The notes below the pieces were generated by a model. That model was not told the DNA's origin. It did no database searches and saw only the letters and a list, made by a program, of their open reading frames with translations. The translations under genes and the position numbers were made by a program. Below, piece after piece: positions 23,652 through 27,056 of a DNA stretch of 64,000 nt (position 1 is the first letter of the stretch; the number at the start of each line of letters is the position of its first letter). This DNA comes from a bacterium. GTDB lineage: Bacteria > Sumerlaeota > Sumerlaeia > SLMS01 > JAHLLQ01. Location: positions 754,979 to 818,978 of the forward strand of contig JAHLLQ010000003.1 of NCBI GenBank assembly GCA_020444065.1, in the 5' to 3' direction.

Positions 23652-23680
23652 TTGACTCGGGAGGGTCCGATCCCTAGTTT
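23652..23680 (+). promoter_or_regulatory. Candidate sigma-70-type promoter for the tuf-ribosomal block
   Basis: TTGACT, a 17-base spacer and TAGTTT match the -35/-10 consensus in five and three positions. Transcription from here would start near 23687 and give a leader of about 360 bases before the tuf ATG. No competing promoter of similar quality is visible between 23680 and 24045. Confidence 0.4.
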
Positions 23681-23773
23681 TCACCGCCCCTGCGAGAGAA
23701 AGAAGTTCGCTCTGGCAGGAAATGGCGGGTTCGGGATTCCCTCCCCCGGACAGTCGGTTCGCCCGACACCGCT

Positions 23774-23935
23774 GAGAGAGAAAGGAAGCGAGGGCGCCTT
23801 CCGACTTCGCAGTTCGCTGCGAATGGCCTTCGGGCCGGCCCTCCTGTTCGCTCTCTCTTACAAAAGAAGTACTTGGGAAAACGCGGCTTTGTGGGACCCC
23901 TTCGGGCCCGCCCTCGAGATTCCTTCGGGATAATC
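23774..23935 (+). promoter_or_regulatory. Structured 5' leader upstream of tuf with UUCG-loop hairpins
   Basis: The 553-base gap between the GT87-like gene and tuf has no convincing gene; 23493-23651 shows nothing. From 23774 the sequence folds: outer arms GAGAGAG and CTCTCTC (23774-23780, 23851-23857) and GAGGGC/GCCCTC (23790-23795, 23838-23843) enclose two hairpins, TTCGCAG-TTCG-CTGCGAA (23806-23823) and GGCC-TTCG-GGCC (23825-23836). A third stem with a TTCG loop (GATTCC-TTCG-GGATAATC) follows at about 23917-23934. C(UUCG)G loops are exceptionally stable in RNA, which favours a transcribed structured leader over chance. It may control the block's expression; no known riboswitch or L4/S10 leader fold was recognised. 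Confidence 0.5.
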
Positions 23936-24045
23936 CGAGGTCAGCAAAAGCCGCGGAGTATTATGAAAAGCGGAACTGATTTCGGGATGGAAAACCCCGG
24001 GAAGCTATAAACCACACCGTCAGAATTTTTTCGCCGGAGGCCATC

Positions 24046-25248
<1,203 letters not shown>

Positions 25249-25317: not shown

Positions 25318-25629
25318 ATGGCGCAACAAGTGATTCGCATCAACCTGAGGTCCTTCGATTCCCGGCTGCTGGATACGTCTGTTGCCTCGATCGTCGAGAC
25401 GGCACGCAGCACTGGAGCCAATGTAGCCGGCCCGGTTCCTCTTCCAACGCGCATTCGCCGTTTCACGGTTCTGCGCTCGCCGCACGTGGACAAGAAGTCC
25501 CGTGAGCAATTCGAGATGCGCCAGCACAAGCGCTTGATCGACTTGGTGGAACCCTCCCAGAAGACCCTGGACGAACTGCAGAATCTTGAGCTCCCCGCCG
25601 GCGTGCATGTGGAAATCAAGCTGACCTGA
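25318..25629 (+). CDS. rpsJ: 30S ribosomal protein S10
   Basis: 103 residues, standard length. Begins [19 protein letters not shown] and contains the signature [26 protein letters not shown] in the ribosome-contacting loop. S10 also pairs with NusB in antitermination. First gene of the S10 cluster. The ribosome site is weak (GAGG about 13 bases upstream). A 118-base spacer, the longest in the block apart from the 115 bases before infA, separates it from rplC. Confidence 0.98.
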
Positions 25630-25747
25630 AGTAGAACCGGCGGGCTTTAGCCCCAACAACGACCCAACGAGGCCCGAATTCCGCCCTCGAACTCTTAGAG
25701 GACGATGTGCGAATTACGGGGATGACAAGACAGAGGTAAAGGGAACA

Positions 25748-26398
25748 ATGCCCCTTGGACTCTTAGGAAAAAAGATTGGAATGACCCAGATTTTCGACGA
25801 AACCGGAGCGTTGATTCCGGTGACGTTGATCCAGGCGGGTCCCTGCCACGTTGTGCAGAAGCGCGACGAGGCCAAAGACGGCTATGAGGCCCTTCAGCTC
25901 GGCTTCGATGAGAAGGCCGAGCGCAAGGTCAACAAGCCCGAACTGGGTGCATTCAAGAAAGCGGGAACCCCGGCCTGCTACCTGCTGCGTGAATTCCGCG
26001 GCCCCGAGTCCCGGGATTTCGAAGTCGGCCAGACGCTCGACGTCGAAATCTTCGAGGACGGTGAACGGGTCGACGTGATCGGCACCAGCAAAGGCCGCGG
26101 CTTCCAAGGCACCCGCCGTCGCTTCAAGACCAACCCCGGCCCCAAGACCCACGGTTCCATGTATCACAACCGTCCGGGCTCCAGTGGCGCCAGTTCGGAT
26201 CCCTCGCGGGTCTGGAAGGGTAAGAAGAACCCCGGTCAGCTCGGCTCGACGCGCGTCACCGCCTCGAACCTGTTGATCGTCAAGCGCGATCCCGTTCGTA
26301 ACCTGCTGTTCGTGCGCGGCTCTGTGCCGGGCGCCAACAATGGCTACGTCATGATTCGCAAGCGCAAAAGCAATGCCGCCAAGGCTGTCGCCGGGTGA
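25748..26398 (+). CDS. rplC: 50S ribosomal protein L3
   Basis: 216 residues, normal bacterial length. MPLGLLGKKIGMTQIFDETG is the canonical opening. The long extension reaching the peptidyl-transferase centre is present (KTHGSMYHNRPGS, with GQLGSTRVT near the modified-Gln region). AGAGGTAAAGGGAAC precedes the ATG as ribosome site. Follows rpsJ and is followed closely by rplD. Confidence 0.98.
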   Translation: MPLGLLGKKIGMTQIFDETGALIPVTLIQAGPCHVVQKRDEAKDGYEALQLGFDEKAERKVNKPELGAFKKAGTPACYLLREFRGPESRDFEVGQTLDVEIFEDGERVDVIGTSKGRGFQGTRRRFKTNPGPKTHGSMYHNRPGSSGASSDPSRVWKGKKNPGQLGSTRVTASNLLIVKRDPVRNLLFVRGSVPGANNGYVMIRKRKSNAAKAVAG

Positions 26399-26426
26399 GT
26401 AACTAAAGAAGGATCGAGTTAGAGCC

Positions 26427-27056
26427 ATGCCTAGCATCGCGATCAAAAACATCAGCGGCGAAGCAGTCGGAAACGTCGAACTTAGCGACGCCGTGTTTGC
26501 TGCCCCGCAGAACGCCATCGTCGTCCGCGAAGCTGTGAACGCCCACCTGGCCAATCGTCGTCAGGGGACCGCTTCCAGCAAAGAGCGCGGCGATGTCCGC
26601 GGCGGTGGTAAGAAGCCCTGGAAGCAGAAGGGCACCGGCCGTGCCCGCGCAGGCACAACCCGCAGCCCGTTGTGGCGCGGTGGTGCCATCATCTTCGGCC
26701 CCCATCCCCGGGACTACAGCCAGAAGATCAACCGGAAGAAGAACCGCGCCGCGTTGCGTGCCGTTCTCTCCGCCCGCGTGGAAGGAAACGGCCTGCACAT
26801 CGTCGACCAGATCGACCTGGCGTCCGAACCGAAGACCAGCCGCGTTGTCGCGCTGATCGATGCACTGGGAATCGAAGAAGGCCGCGTTCTGTTCGTGACC
26901 GAGGCCGTCAACGAGTCCCTGATGCGGGCCGCCCGGAACATCCCGTACGCGGACGTCGAGATTGCCGGCTCCATCAGCGTCTACGACTTGCTGATTGCCG
27001 ACCACATCGTCGCTACCCGCGCCGCCGTCGAGCAACTTCAGGAGATGTTCCAATGA
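26427..27056 (+). CDS. rplD: 50S ribosomal protein L4
   Basis: 209 residues. The exit-tunnel loop is intact (SKERGDVRGGGKKPWKQKG, then GRARAGTTRSPLWRGG). In many bacteria L4 represses its own operon by binding the S10 leader; whether the leader here is a target is unknown. Its stop overlaps the rplW start by four bases (ATGA). Confidence 0.98.
   Translation: MPSIAIKNISGEAVGNVELSDAVFAAPQNAIVVREAVNAHLANRRQGTASSKERGDVRGGGKKPWKQKGTGRARAGTTRSPLWRGGAIIFGPHPRDYSQKINRKKNRAALRAVLSARVEGNGLHIVDQIDLASEPKTSRVVALIDALGIEEGRVLFVTEAVNESLMRAARNIPYADVEIAGSISVYDLLIADHIVATRAAVEQLQEMFQ

Follow-up and report, generated by a model that had tools for sequence, protein, structure and literature searches.

Comparative sequence evidence makes it almost certain that a new structured leader RNA heads the tuf–S10 operon across the class Sumerlaeia, and this leader is probably a previously undescribed regulatory RNA that is absent from the RNA catalogues. 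In the window (the whole stretch of 64,000 nucleotides that we analysed, from a metagenome-assembled genome of Sumerlaeota), the RNA carries two short hairpins, A and B, which together form a module with complementary loops. EF-Tu, the product of tuf, ranks among the most abundant proteins of bacteria, and to our knowledge the tuning of its operon beyond the model phyla is largely unknown. A leader that is kept class-wide in uncultured bacteria, its stem free to change and its complementary loops frozen, makes a well-defined target. It can be synthesised, probed and used to pull down a protein partner without culture of the host.

The leader, its promoter and its operon

An earlier note on this DNA had proposed a promoter followed by a structured leader ahead of the tuf–ribosomal block. 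The leader is confirmed; with transcription predicted to start at about 23686, it is about 360 nt long, and the gene order tuf-rpsJ-rplC-rplD identified by Pfam places an r-protein operon behind it (Table 1). The proposed promoter was also borne out by conservation, as a TTGAC-N17/18-TA box is equally placed in nearly all relatives from f1 and f2, the family of the window and its sister, and in most of the class. A -10-like element lies downstream of the TTGAC box in most genomes, and in most genomes with such a box the distance from it to the A loop is 82–97 nt. This near-fixed distance indicates that the module is tied to the 5' end of the transcript. Its position is constant, within the predicted transcript and in front of a single gene or operon.

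Table 1. Features of the tuf–S10 leader and operon, numbered from the first letter of the window.
Feature	Position	Strand	Details
Promoter TTGACT-17-TAGTTT	23652..23680	+	-35 TTGACT, 23652-23657; spacer 17; -10 TAGTTT, 23675-23680; relatives have this box at an equal distance
P1, hairpin at the transcript 5' end	23689..23719	+	From folds; most f1/f2 relatives have an equivalent whose sequence differs
P2, three-way junction GCGG-(hairpin A)-(hairpin 23753-23767)-CCGC	23725..23772	+	From constrained folds
Hairpin A	23729..23751	+	Loop AUUCCCUCC with invariant CCCUC, 23739-23743; constrained fold, strict rule, covariation
P3, outer stem GAGAGAG/CTCTCTC	23774..23857	+	From folds; arms 23774-23780 and 23851-23857; encloses hairpin B as well as the UUCG hairpins 23806-23823 and 23825-23836
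Hairpin B, GGAAG-C-GAGGGC-GC-CUUCC	23784..23802	+	GAGGG, 23790-23794, complements the hairpin A loop
GCCCUC, tentative alternative partner of GAGGGC 23790-23795	23838..23843	+	P 0.045 in the window
Element II	23882..23955	+	Stem CGCGGCUUU/AAAGCCGCG round two hairpins, one of them CGAGAUUCC..GGGAUAAUCCG
Shine-Dalgarno GGAGG of tuf	24036..24040	+	
tuf (EF-Tu)	24046..25248	+	Gene 1 of the operon; Pfam GTP_EFTU domains
rpsJ (S10), rplC (L3), rplD (L4)	25318..27056	+	Downstream of tuf, same operon; Pfam

Compensatory change in hairpin A and invariance of the loops

When the sequences that precede tuf in the relatives were aligned, two blocks emerged: hairpin A, with the consensus loop NN-CCCUC-N, and hairpin B, with the consensus GAAG-N1-3-GAGGGC-NN-CUUC. 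Hairpin A was recovered in 29/29 leaders by constrained folding and in 25 of the 29 by a strict mechanical rule, against 0.77 expected. A covariance model of related tuf leaders, which the earlier note had named as the check to be made, was made with 12 leaders and a prescribed structure, and the other leaders were then aligned to it. Compensatory changes were found in the stem of hairpin A, all six pairs of which (6/6) have changed on both sides; the 54 double-change cells compare with 12.9±3.3 in shuffles (0/500), and the covariation score of 0.51 fell below 0.08 after the partners had been slid by one to three columns. Two of the 30 aligned rows are misaligned or spurious (L104 and L144:539), which biases the analysis against the covariation result and not toward it. 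The pairing of helix A is thus conserved by compensatory change, as expected of a structured cis-regulatory leader.

The four pairs of hairpin B are nearly invariant, so that covariation neither supports nor contradicts them. In 29/29 leaders loop A contains CCCUC and loop B its complement GAGGG, with zero variation, and from this complementarity we predict a 5-bp kissing loop, for which the geometry appears suitable. As the kissing pairs are invariant, covariation offers no proof of them; the combination of a free A stem with two frozen loops implies that something other than the partner loop also reads each of them. The proposal of a new regulatory RNA before the tuf block is therefore upheld by strong covariation and synteny together with the lack of an Rfam match. 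Covariation is present and the promoter is conserved, so that neither of the outcomes named in the note as refuting its proposal came about. The conserved features themselves, hairpins A and B with their complementary loops, had been overlooked in it.

That note had dwelt on the outer stem and on two UUCG hairpins, TTCGCAG-TTCG-CTGCGAA and GGCC-TTCG-GGCC; these are real, and, in line with its third TTCG-capped stem, further UUCG-capped stems are present in 23882-23955. Its emphasis on UUCG caps as a hallmark did not survive comparison. TTCG occurs 11 times in the window's leader (2.8±1.4 expected, 0/500 shuffles), and two UUCG caps there sit on stems of at least 4 bp; the three relatives of the same family that have a leader contain two TTCG each in it, of which only one caps a stem. 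The caps are species-specific and are ruled out as a conserved feature by these two TTCG per family relative; as a local habit of this species they say little about function. Thermodynamic stability was likewise rejected as proof, with a modest z of -1.7 to -2.6 (whole leader, z = -1.69, 7/100 shuffles equally good; 96-nt domain, z = -2.59, 3/200 shuffles equally good).

Distribution of the module

Loci with tuf-rpsJ were collected by an EF-Tu protein search, which avoids their selection by the motif. The A/B module lies ahead of 23 of 24 such operons across Sumerlaeia. The exception, G007 (L103), has a clear promoter and a differently built leader. Across the phylum, the hairpin B pattern was found in 32 of 40 genomes, about once per genome and with few matches to the reversed pattern, and its matches precede tuf, bar a few apparent chance ones; those at G001:C69, G027:C50 and G019:C296 lie inside other genes and are seemingly of this kind. 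Five further genomes have a contig that stops at tuf or within it, directly behind the leader, as would fit assembler breakage at duplicated tuf genes.

One genome, G026, contains two nearly identical complete tuf leaders on separate contigs (L153 = G026:C274 and L136 = G026:C25), both of which keep the module exactly; these represent either a duplicate tuf or a strain mixture. In G013 (L122), an EF-G-like open frame lies upstream of the leader, apparently placing the module between fusA and tuf. The second copy in G026 and the fusA–tuf placement in G013 suggest that the module follows tuf as much as S10. A tuf copy beside secE/nusG in G001 (L101) and G002 (L107) has a tRNA-like sequence upstream and lacks the A/B module, from which it appears that the module marks the S10-linked tuf.

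Under strict filters, the covariance model gave no match in 251 genomes of other phyla, at a sensitivity that is limited, given that the window's own copy scores just 22 bits with a model built from other variants. In the set of other-phylum tuf loci, the model matched only the window and a Sumerlaeota relative (L001). The pattern gave scattered matches in the 251 genomes, little above the reversed-pattern control, and none in the 79 other-phylum tuf loci. By model and by pattern, the module appears confined to Sumerlaeota and class-restricted within the genomes searched.

No Rfam 15 covariance model matched the window above gathering, and a search of the leader region with E up to 5 returned nothing credible (best E 2.5–4.5, all below gathering). 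The literature on tuf leader RNAs contained nothing matching. No rRNA look-alike of the module was found, by short motifs and by eye, in the 23S of one class member, while no 16S was identified; a search for the 23S gene of the window's own assembly gave no LSU match.

Wider architecture of the leader

A common plan recurs in most f1/f2 leaders, comprising a 5' hairpin, a three-way junction that contains hairpin A, and an outer stem that encloses hairpin B. Constrained folds give the P2 junction likewise in most f1/f2 relatives, and in most of them hairpin B is flanked by a stem of different sequence. By a duplex-shuffle test P3 was weak and reached significance in some f1 members only, so the case for it comes from the recurrent architecture. 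Element II of the window recurs only in G020 (L083), which represents one genus of the same family (E 3.4e-6, 75%). In G020, its CGAGAUUCC..GGGAUAAUCCG hairpin has CGAAAC for the UUCG cap, together with one compensated stem pair.

Between hairpin B and tuf no conserved intrinsic terminator was found, a candidate being present in 1/29 leaders, and no expression platform linked to the Shine-Dalgarno sequence was recognisable in the leaders. Hairpin B lies 77–370 nt from the start codon. An intrinsic attenuator of the rpsL-leader type was rejected on the single terminator candidate and on this variable distance, which also makes it less likely that hairpin B masks the start site directly.

Discussion

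The heads of r-protein operons are the usual seat of feedback leaders, and an autoregulatory role of the tuf–S10 leader is plausible. We tentatively favour, at somewhat less than an even chance, feedback control of the operon through binding of a translation-machinery protein. A binding site for such a protein is favoured by the gene context, by the frozen loops and by analogy with the Escherichia coli S10 leader, in which uL4 binds and exerts feedback at the head of an r-protein operon (PMC10931766). Both leaders are long and structured and head the S10 operon; in contrast to the E. coli leader, however, the one described here has another sequence and fold according to Rfam, is followed first by tuf and is without a conserved terminator. 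Since the uL4-type S10 leader is itself restricted to some gamma-proteobacteria (PMC10931766), it would be unsurprising if Sumerlaeia had a solution of their own.

Under this feedback hypothesis, transcription would start near 23686 and the RNA would fold into the 5' hairpin, hairpin A and hairpin B, after which the pairing CCCUC:GAGGG would lock A against B. The resulting compact fold may expose the invariant bases of the loop and of the B stem to a protein, which would most likely be an operon product or a protein handled by the ribosome, such as L4, another primary r-protein or EF-Tu. When in excess of ribosomes, this protein would bind and lower operon expression, possibly through an altered long-range fold, translation initiation, pausing or Rho, and not through an intrinsic attenuator. 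A bolder version, which we consider unlikely, is that the two hairpins, joined by the invariant CCCUC:GAGGG kissing loop, form a class-defining sensor that sets the output of EF-Tu and the S10 operon, with EF-Tu itself or a ribosome-assembly protein as the signal; EF-Tu would then be governed by a feedback loop unlike any known r-protein leader.

Other known leaders offer partial parallels. The rpsL-leaders of str operons act as attenuators of the terminator/antiterminator kind ahead of rpsL or fusA and come in phylum-specific forms (PMC2965389); like the tuf–S10 leader they head operons with translation factors and r-proteins, but the conserved terminator is absent here. The S15 (rpsO) pseudoknot leaders are alike in that loop pairing occurs within an r-protein operator. 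Their pseudoknots include or adjoin the initiation site, whereas the present module lies well upstream of it, is predicted to link two distinct hairpins and differs in sequence.

The fixed promoter distance makes transcription processivity the strongest rival to protein-mediated feedback. The module may act on RNA polymerase, either as a promoter-proximal processivity antiterminator resembling EAR or put or by controlling pausing. Besides the near-constant spacing, such an action would be in keeping with the place of the module in front of a very long operon, with the invariance of its loops, and with the absence of both a terminator and an expression platform linked to the Shine-Dalgarno sequence. 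However, there is about one site per genome, where an antiterminator serving several long operons might recur, and no boxA was clearly recognised; on balance, we regard an action on RNA polymerase as rather improbable.

The hairpin at the transcript 5' end raises a further alternative, passive mRNA stabilization, in which a stable 5' structure would shield an abundant mRNA from RNase E or its 5' end from RppH. The need for abundant EF-Tu mRNA would be met in this way, and the species-specific UUCG caps would add stability. Passive stability nevertheless leaves the class-wide invariant complementary loops unexplained, and we consider it very unlikely to be the main role of the leader.

Loop–loop pairing between two hairpins is also known from kissing-loop riboswitches of the purine and guanidine-II types, and a small-molecule riboswitch that reports translation capacity, with a ligand pocket formed by A and B around a kissing loop in the purine-riboswitch style, would be compatible with the invariant loop bases, the kissing geometry and the narrow spread of the module. 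Our leader nevertheless has no sequence match to these riboswitches and differs from them in loops, spacing and gene context. Moreover, only one operon carries the module, a recognisable expression platform is absent and the Rfam riboswitches are unmatched, which leaves the riboswitch with a slim chance.

Similarly slight is the chance that the A loop is an anti-Shine-Dalgarno element and B a Shine-Dalgarno decoy, with capture of B by the downstream GCCCUC leaving the A loop to mask the tuf Shine-Dalgarno sequence: the A-loop CCUC can pair with GAGG or GGGG of tuf Shine-Dalgarno sequences and the downstream complement of GAGGGC beats shuffles in some leaders (P ≤ 0.05 in 7/29), but CCUC pairs with any Shine-Dalgarno sequence and is thus not discriminating, and the complement is absent or non-significant in most families.

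With regard to the region nearest to tuf, two leaders of family f13 (L090 and L095, from G028 and G035) share a conserved GGGCAGUC..GACCGCC hairpin shortly upstream of the tuf start, and it is possible that this hairpin serves as an expression platform in that family.
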